DNA from: Deltaproteobacteria bacterium HGW-Deltaproteobacteria-18
GTDB taxonomy: Bacteria; Desulfobacterota; Desulfovibrionia; Desulfovibrionales; Desulfomicrobiaceae
Reading direction: 5' to 3'
Assembly (NCBI GenBank): GCA_002841885.1
Contig: PHBE01000002.1
Coordinates: 124,001 to 188,000 of the forward strand
DNA length: 64,000 nt
Shown piece after piece: positions 53,380-61,062 of this stretch. The notes beneath the pieces are model-generated. The model was not told where the DNA came from, did no database searches, and saw nothing but the letters and a program-made list of their open reading frames with translations. Position numbers and translations under genes: made by a program. Numbering within the stretch: position 1 is the stretch's first letter; each line of letters begins with the position of its first letter.

Positions 53380-54252
53380 TTGCATTCCGTGATCCAACGC
53401 GTCGCTGCTATTCATGATCTTTCCGGGTTCGGAGGGGGGTCACTCTCGGCTGTGATCCCCATTCTTTCAGCCCTTGGAATTCAGGTTTGCAGCCTGCCCA
53501 CAGCCATCCTCTCCACCCACACAGGCGGCTTCGCCAACTTCCATTTCCGCGATCTGACCTCGGACATGCGTTATATAATTGATCATTGGCGACAGCTGTC
53601 CCTGTCTTTTGCCGGAATCTACTCCGGATTTCTGGGTTCGCCGGAACAGATCGACATCGTCAGTGATTTCATAAGAACTTTCCGCACCGAATCCACCCTG
53701 GTCGTGGTCGATCCGGTACTCGGCGATGACGGCAGGCTTTACGACACCATGGACGGATGCATGGTCGAGGGCATGCGCAGCCTTGTCGCCTCCGCCGACG
53801 TAATCACCCCGAACATCACCGAGGCTGCCTTGCTGCTGGGCAAGGCCGGTCCCCCGGCCGTTTCCGGCACCAGGGAAATAAAGATCTGGGCCCGCGCCCT
53901 GGCAGATCTCGGTCCGCGCTGCGTCATCATCACCAGCGTCCCCGAGGAGCACGGCCGGGGAACGTCGGTCGTAGCCTTCGACAAGGACGTCAGCCGCTTC
54001 TGGAAGGTTGCATGCCCATATATTCCTGCGTGTTATCCCGGCACTGGAGATATTTTTGCCAGTGTGATAACAGGTTCCCTGTTGCAGGGAGATTCTCTGC
54101 CCCTGTCCCTGGACCGGGCCGTGCAGTTCGTCTCCATGGCCATCCGGGCAACCTTTGGCCACAATTTTCCGGAGCGCGAAGGAGTGTTTCTGGAACGGGT
54201 GCTCCCGAGCCTGAACGCTCCCGTTTCCATGAGCAGCTTTGAACTGATATGA
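53380..54252 (+). CDS. pdxY: Pyridoxal/pyridoxamine kinase (PfkB-like, PdxY type)
   Basis: The 290-residue kinase phosphorylates pyridoxal or related vitamers. Family marks are IHDLSGFGGGSLSAVIPILSALG (start of the ribokinase-like fold), LSTHTGGF, VVVDPVLGDDG, ITPNITEAALLLG and the catalytic loop YPGTGDIFASVITG, with the GTGD anion hole. The start is TTG at 53380 with TGGAG 9 bp before; GTG at 53389 is an alternative. The stop overlaps the HAD gene start by 4 bp, placing it first in a seven-gene operon with the mla genes. Confidence 0.85.
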   Translation: MHSVIQRVAAIHDLSGFGGGSLSAVIPILSALGIQVCSLPTAILSTHTGGFANFHFRDLTSDMRYIIDHWRQLSLSFAGIYSGFLGSPEQIDIVSDFIRTFRTESTLVVVDPVLGDDGRLYDTMDGCMVEGMRSLVASADVITPNITEAALLLGKAGPPAVSGTREIKIWARALADLGPRCVIITSVPEEHGRGTSVVAFDKDVSRFWKVACPYIPACYPGTGDIFASVITGSLLQGDSLPLSLDRAVQFVSMAIRATFGHNFPEREGVFLERVLPSLNAPVSMSSFELI

Positions 54253-55100
54253 ATGACCGATATCGCGGAATTTTCGTCACCGACCTCGACGGGACCCTGC
54301 TGCGGGACGGCCGGATCACCGAAGGAGACCTGCGGGCCTTCAGGAGTCTCGGCGATCAGGGCATCATGCGCGTCGTCGCGACGGGCAGGTCGCTGCATTC
54401 CGCCAAGGCCTGTCTTGCGGATGATTTTCCGGCCGAGTATCTGATCCTTTCGACCGGAAACCAGATCGTGGAATGGTCGACGCAGAAGGTCATGCGCTCT
54501 TCCTTCCTGTCAGGCCTGGAAGTGCTGGAAATCTGCCATTTCCTGCACGGGCATGGACTGAGCTTCATGGTGCATGAAGAATTTCCGCACAGTCATCGCT
54601 TCGAATACCACCGGGGGCACAAGAGCGTCGCGGATTTCGATCGACGCCTGGCCCTGTATGCGGACCACTGCCAGGAAAAAGCAGGCTGCCCCGATATGCG
54701 GCGCGCCGCATCCCAGATCGTGGTTATCGTTGACGGCAGCGATGCGGCAATGCATGACCGCATCAACCGGGAACTGGGAAATCTGAGCGTGATCAGGGCC
54801 ACGTCCCCGCTGGATGGCCAGTCCGTATGGATTGAAATCTTTGCCGCCAATGTCTCCAAGGCCTCAGGGATAATGCACCTCGTCAACCATCACGATCTGC
54901 AGGGAGCTCCAATCGCGGCCATCGGCAACGATCACAACGACAGGGACATGCTTGAATTCGTACAGATGCCCTTCAAAGTTGCGGACGCCTTTCTGGATGA
55001 TGAAGAAAAATATATTACAACTCCGGAGAAGAGCGATGCAGTGGCCTTTGCCATTGCACACTACATGGAAACCTTCCATGCCGGCATGACGGACGCATGA
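54249..55100 (+). CDS. HAD-superfamily phosphatase (Cof type)
   Basis: The 283-residue enzyme has the four HAD motifs: DLDGTLL (nucleophile Asp), VATGRS, a Lys in SKASGIMHLV and GNDHNDRDML. The inserted cap at about residues 85-190 is of the Cof (C2) type. Such enzymes remove phosphate from sugar phosphates, nucleotides or PLP; its place after a pyridoxal kinase makes PLP or pyridoxine phosphate a reasonable guess but no more. It overlaps both neighbours by 4 bp. Confidence 0.88.
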   Translation: MNDRYRGIFVTDLDGTLLRDGRITEGDLRAFRSLGDQGIMRVVATGRSLHSAKACLADDFPAEYLILSTGNQIVEWSTQKVMRSSFLSGLEVLEICHFLHGHGLSFMVHEEFPHSHRFEYHRGHKSVADFDRRLALYADHCQEKAGCPDMRRAASQIVVIVDGSDAAMHDRINRELGNLSVIRATSPLDGQSVWIEIFAANVSKASGIMHLVNHHDLQGAPIAAIGNDHNDRDMLEFVQMPFKVADAFLDDEEKYITTPEKSDAVAFAIAHYMETFHAGMTDA

Positions 55101-55888
55101 AAAACATATTGGCCATCCCCGCACTGCTCGGGGCAACATCACTTGGTATCATCAAGAACGTGGGACAGTGGGGGGTCTTTTCCCTCACCGCAGTCCTGGG
55201 TATGGTGCACATGCGCCGGCTCCTGCCCAAGATTCTCTACGACATATATTTCATCGGCTTCAAATCCCTGAACATCATTATTCTTGTGGCGTTCTTCACG
55301 GGCATGGTCCTTGGACTGCAAGGCTACTACACCCTGATCAAGTTCAGCGCCGAGGGCATGTTAGGCGTGGCCGTGGCCCTTTCCCTGGTGCGCGAACTCG
55401 GGCCGGTGCTGACGGCAATCATGCTCATCGGCCGGGCCGGTTCGAGCATCAGCGCCGAGATAGGTATCATGCGCATCTCCGAGCAGATCGACGCCCTCTC
55501 GACCATGGACGTGGACCCTGTCCGCTATCTGGTCACGCCCAAAATCATCGCTTCGCTGATCTGCTTTCCGCTCCTGACCGCAATTTTCGATTGCGTGGGC
55601 ATTCTGGGCGGGTACTTTTCCTCCGTGCTCCTGAGTTCCCGCTCGGGTATCTTTTTCAGCAAGATCCAGTCGAGCCTGCTCCTGTCCGACGTGACTGGAG
55701 GGTTCGTCAAATCCTTTGTCTTTGCCTTCATTGTCATCACCATATCCTGCTACTGCGGATATTACACGCACCAGAACCAATCCAGCGCCGGTGCGGAAGG
55801 CGTCAGCAACTCCACGACATCTGCCGTTGTCCAGTCATGCGTTTACGTATTGGTCTCCGACTACGTCATAACGTCCTTTTTGATGTGA
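55097..55888 (+). CDS. mlaE: MlaE, phospholipid transport permease
   Basis: This inner-membrane subunit of the Mla ABC complex moves phospholipids between the membranes. The 263-residue protein has five or six hydrophobic segments and the family motifs FFTGMVLGLQGYYTL, LVRELGPVLTAIMLIGRAGSSISAEIG and IDALSTMDVDPVRYLVTPK. It starts 4 bp inside the HAD gene end and is followed by mlaF after 4 bp. No mlaB (STAS domain) gene is present in this operon. Confidence 0.95.
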   Translation: MKNILAIPALLGATSLGIIKNVGQWGVFSLTAVLGMVHMRRLLPKILYDIYFIGFKSLNIIILVAFFTGMVLGLQGYYTLIKFSAEGMLGVAVALSLVRELGPVLTAIMLIGRAGSSISAEIGIMRISEQIDALSTMDVDPVRYLVTPKIIASLICFPLLTAIFDCVGILGGYFSSVLLSSRSGIFFSKIQSSLLLSDVTGGFVKSFVFAFIVITISCYCGYYTHQNQSSAGAEGVSNSTTSAVVQSCVYVLVSDYVITSFLM

Positions 55889-55892
55889 GCAC

Positions 55893-57086
55893 ATGAGCAG
55901 CACAACACCACTCATCCAACTGCGCAACATTTCAAAGGCGTTCGGCGGCAGGGACATCCTGCGGGGAGCGACCCTCGACATCCAGCGAAACGAGATCACT
56001 GCCATCATCGGGAAAAGCGGCGGCGGCAAAAGCGTCCTCGTCAAGCACATCATCGGGCTGATCACTGCCGACAGCGGCGAGATCATTTTCGACGGGCTCC
56101 CCTACTCGACCATGAACCGCAAGGAATTTTCGGCGATCAAAAACCGTTGCAGCTACATGTTTCAGAACAACGCGCTCTTTGATTCCATGACCGTGTTCGA
56201 GAACATCGCCCTGCCCCTGCGGGAAAAATTCAAGCTCGGGAACAAGGATCTGGAAGACAAGGTCCGCGCCCGCATCGAACAGCTCGAACTGACCGAGGTG
56301 GCGCAGATGTATCCGAAACAGATTTCAGGCGGCATGCAAAAGCGAGTTGCCCTGGCGCGCGCGCTGGTCACGGAACCGGAGATCATCTTTTTCGACGAAC
56401 CGACCACAGGGCTCGACCCCATCCGCAAGAAGACGGTCTTCTCCATGATCCACCGCTACCATGAAGAGCTCAATTTCACGGCAGTGATCATCACCCATGA
56501 CATCCCCGACATCTTCTACATCGCGCACACCGTGAACATTCTCGATGAGGGCCGTATCATCTTTTCCGGATCGCCGGTGGCTCTCGAACAGTCATCGGAT
56601 CCGGGCCTCTACACTTACACCCACGGCCACGAAATGCTCATTGACGAGTTGACGGGCCTGCACAACAGGCTCTCGCTCATGCGCAAGATCGAGGCCTTCG
56701 GGGCCGAGGGCCAGAGCAGCGAGCGGCTTGTTCTGGCAACGGTCAGACTCCTGGGCATGCGAACCATGATGGACTACAAGGGCGACCTTCTGGCCCACGC
56801 CTTCATCAGGAACCTGGCCAGATTCGTACGGTCCTTTTTGCCCATTGGTGCCTGCGCGGGCATGTTTTCCAAGGAAATTCTGGTTATTGCAGCAAAAACA
56901 CAGGACGAATCCATCCTTGATCTGTTTCTAAGCCAGCTTGAAGCATACTTCACCAACCTGACCGTTGAAACATATTGTCACAAACACAGACTTCAGGTCG
57001 AAATCGGCGGCGCGGTGGTCCCCAAAGGACTGAGCGCCTACTCGGCCATTCAGGAAGCACTTGCAACATCCAAGAAGTACGTATGA
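55893..57086 (+). CDS. mlaF: MlaF ATPase with C-terminal degenerate GGDEF domain
   Basis: Residues 1-245 are an ordinary MlaF-type ATPase: Walker A GKSGGGKS (40-47), Q-loop SYMFQNNALFDSMTV, signature SGGMQKR (145-151), Walker B IIFFDEP and TTHDIP-like switch ITHDIPD. At 397 residues it is about 130 longer than usual. Residues 250-397 read like a GGDEF domain: DELTGLHNRLSLMRKI, then a DxD-like strand VLATVRLLGMRTMMDYKGDLLAHAFIRNLAR, then CAGMFSKEILVIAA where RLGGDEFAVLL is expected, and VEIGGAVVPKGLSAYSAIQEALATSKKYV at the end. The GGDEF signature itself is lost, so it should not make c-di-GMP but could bind nucleotide or protein. It overlaps mlaD by 4 bp. Confidence 0.93.
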   Translation: MSSTTPLIQLRNISKAFGGRDILRGATLDIQRNEITAIIGKSGGGKSVLVKHIIGLITADSGEIIFDGLPYSTMNRKEFSAIKNRCSYMFQNNALFDSMTVFENIALPLREKFKLGNKDLEDKVRARIEQLELTEVAQMYPKQISGGMQKRVALARALVTEPEIIFFDEPTTGLDPIRKKTVFSMIHRYHEELNFTAVIITHDIPDIFYIAHTVNILDEGRIIFSGSPVALEQSSDPGLYTYTHGHEMLIDELTGLHNRLSLMRKIEAFGAEGQSSERLVLATVRLLGMRTMMDYKGDLLAHAFIRNLARFVRSFLPIGACAGMFSKEILVIAAKTQDESILDLFLSQLEAYFTNLTVETYCHKHRLQVEIGGAVVPKGLSAYSAIQEALATSKKYV

Positions 57087-57541
57087 AGACTAACAATTCC
57101 TCCCTGCATCTTTCCATTGGCCTTTTTGTCATCGTAGGCCTCGCCTGCACTGCCTATCTGGCCATGACCCTTGCGAACACCACTTTTTTCGCTGGTGATT
57201 CCTATGAAGTCACAGCAAAGTTCACGGCCGTGAACGGACTCAGGGCCGGCAGCAATGTTGAAATTTCCGGCGTGGCGGTGGGCAAGGTGTCGAGCATCTC
57301 CCTGGACCAGACCCTGTACCAGGCCGTGATCACCATGAACATTGACAATTCCGTAGGCATACCCGTTGATTCCACGGCGGCGATAAAAACCAGCGGACTT
57401 ATCGGTGACAAGTACGTGAGCATCATACCCGGTGCCGATGACGTGCTCTTGAAAAACAAGGAAATCCTCATGGATACCCAGGCAGCCCTCGATATTGAGG
57501 AAATGATTTCAAAATATGTTTTCGGAAGTGTCGACAAATGA
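57083..57541 (+). CDS. mlaD: MlaD, MCE-domain lipid transport protein
   Basis: The 152-residue protein has a single N-terminal membrane helix (LSIGLFVIVGLACTAYLAMTLA) and one MCE domain (YEVTAKFTAVNGLRAGSNVEISGVAVGKVSSI, DSTAAIKTSGLIGDKYVSIIPG). It forms a hexameric ring that guides lipids in the periplasm. The start ATG lies within the mlaF stop (ATGA overlap); longer open frames overlap mlaF heavily and are rejected. Confidence 0.95.
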   Translation: MKTNNSSLHLSIGLFVIVGLACTAYLAMTLANTTFFAGDSYEVTAKFTAVNGLRAGSNVEISGVAVGKVSSISLDQTLYQAVITMNIDNSVGIPVDSTAAIKTSGLIGDKYVSIIPGADDVLLKNKEILMDTQAALDIEEMISKYVFGSVDK

Positions 57542-58119
57542 GAATTCTGCTTCTTTTGCTTATCCTGCTTCTTCCTGCACCCGCCGTGTCGCAGGACAAC
57601 CCGACGAGTTACATCCGCGCCAACATTGACAGGGTGCTTAGCATCCTCACGTCTCCGGAGTACGAGGCGGAAACGGACAAAACCGAGCAACTGCGCCAGA
57701 TCGAGGCCGTGGTTGACAATTTTTTTGATGCTGAAGAGCTCTCCAAGCGTTCTCTTGGTCAGTACTGGAAAATCTTTACTCCCGAACAGAAGCAGGAATT
57801 TCAACCCCTGTTCCTGAAACTCATCAAACAGGTCTATCTCAAAAAATCCATCACCTACAATGACGAGGTGGTGAATTACAACCAGGAAATCATCAAGTCG
57901 GATACCCTGGCCGAAGTCCATACCACGATAACTTCTCCCAGTCTCAACATTCCGATCATTTACTACATGATCAGAAAGGACGTATCTTGGAAGGTTTACG
58001 ACGTTTCGGTGGAGAACGTGAGCCTCATCAAAAACTACCGCTCCCAATTCCGGAGCATCCTGCAAAACAATTCGCCCGATAAACTCATCGCCACCTTGAG
58101 GGAAAAAACAAATGAATAA
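57538..58119 (+). CDS. mlaC: MlaC, periplasmic phospholipid-binding protein
   Basis: The 193-residue exported protein carries lipids between MlaA and the MlaFED complex. It has a signal peptide (ILLLLLILLLPAPAVS), then the Tgt2/MlaC fold with YIRANIDRVLSILTSPEY, FDAEELSKRSLGQYWKIFTPEQKQEF and a central segment VSWKVYDVSVENVSLIKNYRSQF. The start overlaps mlaD by 4 bp and the end overlaps mlaA by 8 bp. Confidence 0.94.
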   Translation: MRILLLLLILLLPAPAVSQDNPTSYIRANIDRVLSILTSPEYEAETDKTEQLRQIEAVVDNFFDAEELSKRSLGQYWKIFTPEQKQEFQPLFLKLIKQVYLKKSITYNDEVVNYNQEIIKSDTLAEVHTTITSPSLNIPIIYYMIRKDVSWKVYDVSVENVSLIKNYRSQFRSILQNNSPDKLIATLREKTNE

Positions 58120-58864
58120 GCGTCTTCTCCTGCTCTGCCTGACTTTGTGCATAATCCTGCTTCAGGGATGCGCCGGCAAAAAATCCAGCTCTTCTTTGAA
58201 CCAGGACGTCGCGGCAGGTCAGGAATATGAGGAAACATACGCCGAGGGCGGAGAAAGCGGCCCCTATCCCGACTCCCTGGAAGGTATCAACAGGGGAGTC
58301 TTCTCGTTCAACGACGGCTTCATCACCTACGTGTTCTCGCCCATCGACACGGTCTACACCGGTTTTTTCCCCCCGGACATCCGTGCCGGGTTCGGCAATT
58401 TCTACCGCAACCTCGGGTATCCCGTGCGGTTCATAAACGCCCTCCTGCAGTTCAAGTTCGACAAGATGGCCAAGGAGACCGCATCCTTCGCCCTGAATAC
58501 AGTTTTCGGCGTGGGGGGGCTTTTCCACATCACCCACAACATGCCGTGCCTGCAATCCTCTCCCGAGGATTTCAGCCAGACCTTGGCCTTTTACGGCCTG
58601 AACTCGGGCACCTATCTCGTGCTGCCCATTCTCGGACCGACCACCCTGCGCGATGCCGTAGGCTCGATTGCGGACTCCTTTGTGCATCCCCTCTCCTTCG
58701 TGACTCCGGACAGCGCAAAATATGCACTGATCGGGCATGACAGAGGCAACACGGCCTCGGCCAACCTCCCGGCCTACAAGAGCATCAAGGAGGAATCCTT
58801 CGATCACTACACGAGCATGAAGGATGTCTATTTCCAGTACAGACTTGGTCTCGAGAAGGAATGA
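58112..58864 (+). CDS. mlaA: MlaA (VacJ), outer-membrane lipoprotein
   Basis: MlaA is the outer-membrane entry for mislocalised phospholipids. The 250-residue product has a lipoprotein signal (LLLCLTLCIILLQGC with the lipobox cysteine near residue 20) and the VacJ motifs LEGINRGVFSFND, FYRNLGYPVRFINALLQ, NTVFGVGGLFH and LPILGPTTLRDAVG. It is encoded directly after mlaC here, whereas in E. coli it is a separate gene. It is the last gene of the operon. Confidence 0.96.
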   Translation: MNKRLLLLCLTLCIILLQGCAGKKSSSSLNQDVAAGQEYEETYAEGGESGPYPDSLEGINRGVFSFNDGFITYVFSPIDTVYTGFFPPDIRAGFGNFYRNLGYPVRFINALLQFKFDKMAKETASFALNTVFGVGGLFHITHNMPCLQSSPEDFSQTLAFYGLNSGTYLVLPILGPTTLRDAVGSIADSFVHPLSFVTPDSAKYALIGHDRGNTASANLPAYKSIKEESFDHYTSMKDVYFQYRLGLEKE

Positions 58865-60153: not shown

Positions 60154-61062
60154 ATGAAAAATCTGAAACGCATCACACTCTGCATAATTATATTTTTTTC
60201 ATTTCAATTAAGCACATTATATGCACTTACAATGTATATTGAAGATGGATCATATTCTGAAGACATTAAAGCAGAAATTATGTTGGATAGTTATACAAAA
60301 AACCAACAGTTTTTTCTGAGAGTTCAGATTGAAAACAAATCCAAACTTGTTGACGTCACAACTGAAACATCTACAATCACTGTAACCCCATTTATCACAG
60401 CATTCGCATTTAATCTTCCAGATAAAATATCAGTTGAAAATTTGTATGTTACAGACAGTGAAGGCAATGATATTTCAGGATGGTCCATTCCATATGTTGG
60501 AATGAGAACAACCATACCATCTCCTGACAATCATGGATTCTGGGATGCAGGCGCAAGCATTGGAAAGCTCTTTACCTCTGGCTCTCCTGAAAACGGCATC
60601 GCACCCGACACCAGTTACTACTTCAATTTCCTCCTTTCAGGGATGCTTGGCAACCCCGATTTTATTCTCGACGAAGCGCCATCCTTTGGCCCTTCCGCTG
60701 GCGGCGGGGGTAGTGGAGGGGGTGGCGGGGGTGGAGGGGGCGGAAGGCCGGGCTATGGAAAAGGGAAAAATGCCCCCCAATCTGCCGAAACCGATGGCGA
60801 GACGACAGAGGGAGGGATTCCGTCACTTGACTGGGAAGAATATTTCCTCGTCAATATGAAAGGCATGCCAGAAGGGACAATTGATTTTGGACTGTTGGTC
60901 CCGGAAAGCGTTCTCACATCTTCCGAACTGCTCACGGCCCAGAGAAGCCTGACACCCCTCCAGGCCGTGGCTACGCCGGAACCGTCGACACTCGCCCTCA
61001 TGGCTGTCGGAGCACTGTGCGCCGCGTTTGTCCAGAGACGACGCACAAGACCATCGATCTAG
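60154..61062 (+). CDS. PEP-CTERM sorting-signal protein
   Basis: The 302-residue protein is exported and carries the C-terminal sorting tag cleaved and sorted by an exosortase: TPEPSTLALMAVGALCAAFVQRRR (here split as PEP, a hydrophobic helix, and an Arg cluster). A signal peptide (LCIIIFFSFQLSTLYAL) starts it. A glycine run (residues about 185-200, GGGGSGGGGGGGGGG-like) joins an AT-rich N-terminal half and a GC-richer C-terminal half. The body is not recognised. The start follows ACAGGGAG. No exosortase or other tag-bearing gene is in the window. PEP-CTERM proteins are usually surface or biofilm matrix proteins. Confidence 0.85.
   Translation: MKNLKRITLCIIIFFSFQLSTLYALTMYIEDGSYSEDIKAEIMLDSYTKNQQFFLRVQIENKSKLVDVTTETSTITVTPFITAFAFNLPDKISVENLYVTDSEGNDISGWSIPYVGMRTTIPSPDNHGFWDAGASIGKLFTSGSPENGIAPDTSYYFNFLLSGMLGNPDFILDEAPSFGPSAGGGGSGGGGGGGGGGRPGYGKGKNAPQSAETDGETTEGGIPSLDWEEYFLVNMKGMPEGTIDFGLLVPESVLTSSELLTAQRSLTPLQAVATPEPSTLALMAVGALCAAFVQRRRTRPSI

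Follow-up and report, generated by a model that had tools for sequence, protein, structure and literature searches.

The window, i.e., the whole stretch of 64,000 nucleotides analyzed here, contains a mlaE-F-D-C-A operon on the plus strand (55097-58864), the genes of which overlap or almost touch each other. The following features were assigned:

55097..55888, plus strand: mlaE, permease (Pfam MlaE, 258 bits)
55893-57086, plus strand: mlaF ORF, open, 397 aa, with the stop codon at 57084-57086
55893..56618, plus strand: ABC ATPase part of mlaF, residues 1-242 (Pfam ABC_tran, 109 bits)
56619..57083, plus strand: C-terminal GGDEF-derived domain of mlaF, residues 243-397, catalytically degenerate (from profile, fold, and alignment)
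56862..56876, plus strand: MFSKE at the GGDEF signature hairpin, residues 324-328 (from alignment and motif position)
57083..57541, plus strand: mlaD, MCE protein (Pfam MlaD, 81.7 bits; NCBIfam OM_asym_MlaD, 157.5 bits, cut-off 135)
57538..58119, plus strand: mlaC, periplasmic carrier (Pfam MlaC, 151.9 bits)
58112..58864, plus strand: mlaA, outer-membrane lipoprotein (Pfam MlaA, 202 bits)

The start of mlaD overlaps the stop of mlaF. Directly upstream of mlaE and on the same strand (53380-55100) lie a phosphomethylpyrimidine-kinase-like gene with a TTG start and a gene for a HAD hydrolase. These two genes and mlaE overlap by 4 bases at each junction, and the kinase-like gene, the HAD hydrolase gene, and the mla operon are possibly one transcript. 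At 60154-61062 (plus strand) a secreted glycine-rich protein is encoded, the C-terminus of which resembles a PEP-CTERM sorting signal as judged by eye.

The MlaF protein contains all motifs of an ABC ATPase, namely Walker A (residues 40-47), the signature ISGGMQ (144-149), Walker B (166-173), and H202, and its gene stands among mlaE, mlaD, and mlaC, which is the expected setting of a mlaF gene. For the full-length AlphaFold2 model (mean pLDDT 92.8, pTM 0.78) the nearest solved structures found with Foldseek are MlaF chains of Escherichia coli and Acinetobacter (best 6xbd_I, E 3.4e-29, 39% identity). The best NCBIfam match is the equivalog PRK11831, which is hit with 191 bits and thus below its cut-off of 441, so that the sequence places the ATPase as a MlaF-type homolog outside this curated, E. 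coli-like equivalog. A plasmid search returned generic ABC or MlaE matches only. With 397 aa, the protein exceeds the MlaF of E. coli (269 aa, CDS of 810 bases) by 128 aa, in line with the excess of about 130 residues over the family length that an earlier sequence-only reading of this DNA had pointed out.

That reading had further claimed that the extra part follows the GGDEF fold from start to end. Scanned alone against Pfam GGDEF (PF00990), as had been suggested, residues 245-397 reach 24.2-24.3 bits (E 3e-5 at 24.3 bits) and lie above the cut-off of 23.8, but they fall below it in longer contexts (20.9 bits with the whole protein, 23.4 bits in the genome scan), and a phmmer search of the single tail against the PDB gave one weak match as the only one, a GGDEF protein (E 0.81). 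Among 43 homologous tails, 39 match PF00990 at E <= 0.01 (best 1.7e-18), and the tail of one further family member reaches 77 bits against GGDEF. With a profile built from the 43 tails, 58 distinct sequences of the PDB are detected at E <= 0.01, the best of them being SadC (4wxw, 1e-24). As the Foldseek list of the full model was filled by ABC ATPases, the tail was modeled and searched alone; the AlphaFold2 model (mean pLDDT 89.9, pTM 0.84) has DgcB as its best Foldseek match (E 8e-7), and a VIA-align comparison confined to Foldseek's own list of structures yields Z values of 14.5-16.7 against GGDEF structures among the 50 matches listed. The predicted fold thus agrees with solved GGDEF structures (Z up to 16.7). 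The two strings quoted earlier for the start and the end of the fold lie at residues 251-262 (DELTGLHNRLSL) and 371-395 (IGGAVV...SKK). As judged from sequence profiles and models, the C-terminal domain of this MlaF is GGDEF-derived by descent and fold. Beyond its closest kin, identity of homologous tails to the tail of the window protein is 12-31%.

The residues that make a GGDEF domain an enzyme are a different matter. The tail was aligned (MAFFT) with 12 intact GGDEF domains of the same genome, and positions were assigned with the PleD numbering of GGDEF sites (D327, N335, D344, and 370). R285 stands at the position of the metal ligand D327, M293 and H302 stand at the guanine contacts N335 and D344, respectively, and the position of the GGDEF loop reads FSKEI; the signature loop MFSKE, which had been reported in place of GGDEF, was indeed found at residues 324-328. 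The metal position 370 is uncertain by one residue (E328 by MAFFT, K327 by the ungapped register against sister sequences, compared by eye), and the placement of R285 is independent of this uncertainty. The RxxD motif of the inhibitory site is absent from the window tail in the alignment. In the family alignment of 71 tails (70 distinct) the first metal aspartate D327 is retained in none, and likewise GG[DE][DE]F was found in none. The D344 position holds Q in 40 tails, H in 21, and D in 0/71, and this preference, to which H302 of the window protein conforms, may point to a new role that the tails share at this site. The best kept residue is the glycine at G297 (65/71), while an arginine before the hairpin is found in 60/71 tails, not including the window's genus, and the entry motif [LIVM]TG in 48/71. 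RxxD is present in 12 of the 71 tails, all of which come from loci that were retrieved outside the window's order. In four further tails (L150, L158, L165, L269) no intact GGDEF was seen by eye, and two MlaFs of Opitutales (L179, L192), with tails of ~130 aa that are too diverged to be placed by eye, are included in no count. By sequence the domain is no active diguanylate cyclase, the GG[DE]EF loop and the metal aspartate being present in 0/71 tails. On the basis of these residues the domain is judged enzymatically dead in the window and in all 71 aligned tails.

The long MlaF is present in all 16 genomes searched of the window's genus, and the tail is therefore no assembly error. Within the order Desulfovibrionales the whole window protein was matched in 75 of 199 genomes at E <= 1e-57, with long MlaFs in the families f1, f3, f4, and f5, and long MlaFs also occur in Desulfobacterales MAGs and in Desulfamplus magnetovallimortis. 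Of 395 genomes searched within the phylum, 112 were matched by a Desulfobacterales query (403 aa) at E <= 1e-70; at least 48 of these have a match that reaches residue 357 or beyond of the 403, which is a lower bound, as the window's own genome matches this query only to residue 288. Closed ORFs of long MlaFs comprise 391-440 aa (74 loci, duplicates counted). Out of 72 distinct long MlaFs, 66 are encoded directly between mlaE (before) and mlaD (after); some of the other six lie at contig or stretch ends or beyond the distance limits, while L245 is an additional copy next to an operon with a mlaF of its own. The MlaF with a GGDEF-derived tail is thus not a one-genome quirk; many Desulfobacterota have it, mostly in the same operon. 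In L283 (474-6829 of G361:C15, minus strand) two long MlaF genes are present, one within mlaE-F-D-C-A and the other directly after mlaA. A different arrangement is seen in four genera of family f5 (g17, g21, g32, g34), where the short MlaF (250-264 aa) of 18 loci (L081-L089, L091-L094, L097, L098, L100-L102) is solitary, all other mla genes being absent from the stretch. In 15 of the 16 genomes with such a solitary MlaF, mlaD comes right after the best mlaE and the operon reads mlaE-D-C with no mlaF (L124-L130, L132, L134, L135, L137-L141); in the remaining one (G123) the best mlaE had no visible mlaD behind it. In two of three loci read, the solitary MlaF lies near a gene that is neuB-like by its sequence.

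Trees were built on the ATPase part alone, as quick trees without bootstrap. Once L151 and eight rows on long branches (including E. coli) are left out, the long and short MlaFs are separated by 5 changes (shuffled mean 48), of which well-supported branches force 1. In an earlier tree, in which L151 had been entered as short, there were 4 changes with 2 forced by well-supported branches; the ORF of L151 ends at the contig end yet shows the start of the domain. The domain is absent in L166 and L261, which are nested among long MlaFs. One gain and a few losses would fit as the simplest reading of the tree.

No STAS gene was found next to or between the mlaE, mlaF, mlaD, mlaC, and mlaA genes of the window, so that the operon lacks mlaB, as had been stated before. 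From this lack it had also been proposed that the domain may take over the place of MlaB. However, in the flanks (1.5-5 kb) a STAS gene was found at 0/72 long MlaF loci and, in the same tally of loci with a MlaF readable by motif search, at 0/72 short MlaF loci as well, with 23 loci (22 + one) left out. The absence of mlaB therefore does not track the domain. There is no association of long or short MlaF with mlaB in this tally, and the missing mlaB of the operon stands. The domain might still replace MlaB, but its position argues rather for a replacement of the C-terminal handshake tail of MlaF. That mlaB was lost where the domain was gained, as complementary events, is not borne out. In 12 of the 22 loci left out (L202, L204, L206, L209, L211, L214-L217, L219, L220, L222) a STAS gene or a STAS-permease fusion adjoins the short MlaF; STAS is thus found next to short MlaFs in other groups, and some association could emerge from a wider count. 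Elsewhere in the window's genome, where a partner might be encoded, there are further STAS stretches, eight by PF01740 and nine by PF13466, and seven STAS proteins that were scanned (C21:26934 and C13:7005 being outside the scan) reach at most 25.8 of 90 bits against a MlaB model, which hits the E. coli control by construction, as MlaB is in the seed, leaves the Thiobacillus locus L218 unmatched, and may therefore miss distant MlaBs. The highest-scoring of the seven is a STAS domain that forms one protein with the permease of a second MCE system. This system (L281, 509-4050 of G000:C9, minus strand) encodes a STAS-MlaE fusion of 380 aa, a short MlaF-type ATPase of 253 aa, a MCE protein of 337 aa, and a lipoprotein-like protein of 206 aa. 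MlaB has been described as sparsely distributed (PMC10665443), and the absence of mlaB looks like background rather than a signature of the domain.

What the domain does can be approached from the E. coli protein. There, the MlaF tail wraps round its partner; without residues 247-269 the protein loses its function and is no longer part of the complex, a defect that is largely rescued by GCN4 as an artificial dimerization domain; and in other ABC ATPases the C-terminal domains associate with each other beneath the ATPase domains (PMC7367683). The domain of the window protein starts at residues 243-245 and the handshake tail of E. coli at residue 247, and in the AlphaFold2 full-length model the last ATPase helix (237-243) and the first GGDEF helix (245-254) are nearly continuous. 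GGDEF domains commonly act as dimers. Because of this dimer-prone family, the same start as the E. coli tail, and the near-continuous helix, we favor, with what we would call an even chance of being right, a folded dimerization and regulatory domain that stands where the E. coli MlaF has its handshake tail. In an early ancestor within the Desulfobacterota, MlaF would have acquired a GGDEF domain at its C-terminus by fusion; this domain would then have lost the residues of the diguanylate cyclase and would have persisted as a folded accessory part. Within the MlaF dimer both copies may meet below the ATPase domains and hold the dimer together, and the domain may adjust how easily the ATPase sites close and remain on MlaE, acting like the C-terminal domains of other ABC ATPases, of which MetN would be the nearest type. 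In Foldseek, the full model and MetN chains align over 374-386 columns at a rmsd of 9-11, and therefore only the order of the parts agrees with MetN, not their arrangement. What speaks against a dimerizing role is that short MlaFs from the same group lack both the domain and a 25-residue tail of the E. coli kind, so that a C-terminal dimerizer is not always needed; moreover, the pTM of the full model is only 0.78 and the tail diverges fast.

Instead of a dimerizer, the domain could be a docking site for another protein, be it a subunit that replaces MlaB, a diguanylate cyclase with activity, or MlaE itself. A fold that persists although the active site can vary is consistent with this, as is the degenerate GGDEF domain of BcsE, which binds BcsQ independently of c-di-GMP (PMC7439463). 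However, no extra conserved gene was seen in the operon, with mlaE, mlaF, and mlaD contiguous in 66/72 loci, and we consider docking a possible but rather doubtful explanation. A ligand-binding switch, which would raise or lower lipid transport when c-di-GMP binds at RxxD or when the cleft of the former active site takes up GTP or (p)ppGpp, appears unlikely for the family. The degenerate GGDEF domains of PelD and BcsE bind c-di-GMP via RxxD (PMC7439463). In the family studied here this motif is retained in the 12 tails mentioned above, the D344 position is non-random in its Q and H, and 35 other GGDEF matches over the cut-off in the window's genome make it probable that c-di-GMP is produced. 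On the other side, D327, D344, and GG[DE][DE]F are kept in 0/71 tails, and the window protein has lost RxxD, both guanine contacts, and the first metal ligand. Control by a nucleotide such as c-di-GMP or GTP, as suggested in the sequence-only reading, is therefore not supported for the window protein with its R285, M293, H302, and FSKEI and is unlikely there, whereas it may hold for the RxxD-bearing relatives. That the dead GGDEF domain is a control unit of Mla across the Desulfobacterota, with RxxD lineages binding c-di-GMP and thereby coupling the lipid balance of the outer membrane to a second messenger inside the motor subunit, would be an improbable extension.

In 8 of 10 pairs the tail has a dN/dS of 0.19-0.25; the exceptions are one very close pair (0.63 at a dS of 0.046) and the most distant pair (0.40), and in the same pairs the ATPase part has 0.02-0.12. 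The domain thus evolves faster than the motor part and yet under purifying selection, not drifting freely. That it is an inert leftover of an old fusion, to which the fast divergence, the absence in the two nested loci, and the two pairs with raised dN/dS could point, is very improbable, as it has stayed open and recognizable across many families of one phylum with a dN/dS of ~0.2 in most pairs.

The sequence-only reading knew of no MlaF with such a domain, and our literature search likewise turned up no description of a MlaF-GGDEF architecture in the literature searched and among the matches listed, subscription papers and preprints being outside its scope. The architecture is real and conserved and seemingly undescribed within that literature, while ABC ATPases with C-terminal accessory domains are already known as a kind, to which a dead GGDEF domain adds a further part. 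In the E. coli work the regulation of Mla and the purpose of MlaB and of the MlaF handshake tail were left open (PMC7367683). A large natural clade in which a folded domain would replace the tail and the operon is free of STAS genes lends itself to experiments on the function of MlaB and tail, and homologs with and without RxxD allow a clean comparison. In Desulfovibrio alaskensis G20, the MlaF of which may be of either type, mla operon mutants have fitness defects under phosphate limitation and with SDS (PMC5193443).

Coming back to a dimerizing and regulatory domain, folded domains that follow an ATPase part are also present in MetN (ferredoxin-like, of MetNI) and in other ABC ATPases such as MalK and ModC (TOBE). 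The C-terminal domains of these proteins are thought to regulate by acting on the association of the ATPases (PMC7367683). They are, however, not GGDEF-derived. PelD and BcsE have GGDEF-derived, catalytically dead domains that are part of an envelope machine (PMC7439463), but they keep the RxxD site for c-di-GMP, which the window domain lacks and 12/71 homologs have. An ammonium transporter (8qj3, 8qpf) is a further transporter chain with a C-terminal stretch that matches the tail profile, although it is not an ABC ATPase, and no paper on it was found in the literature search. The MlaF of E. coli in MlaFEDB (6xbd, 6xgy) is likewise the ABC ATPase of a Mla lipid transporter, with 39% identity over the ATPase part, and the methionine after SGG in the signature motif is common to both (PMC7367683). 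After the ATPase part the two differ: E. coli uses a handshake tail of 23-25 residues together with MlaB as partner, whereas the window protein carries a GGDEF-derived domain of 155 residues there, in an operon without mlaB.
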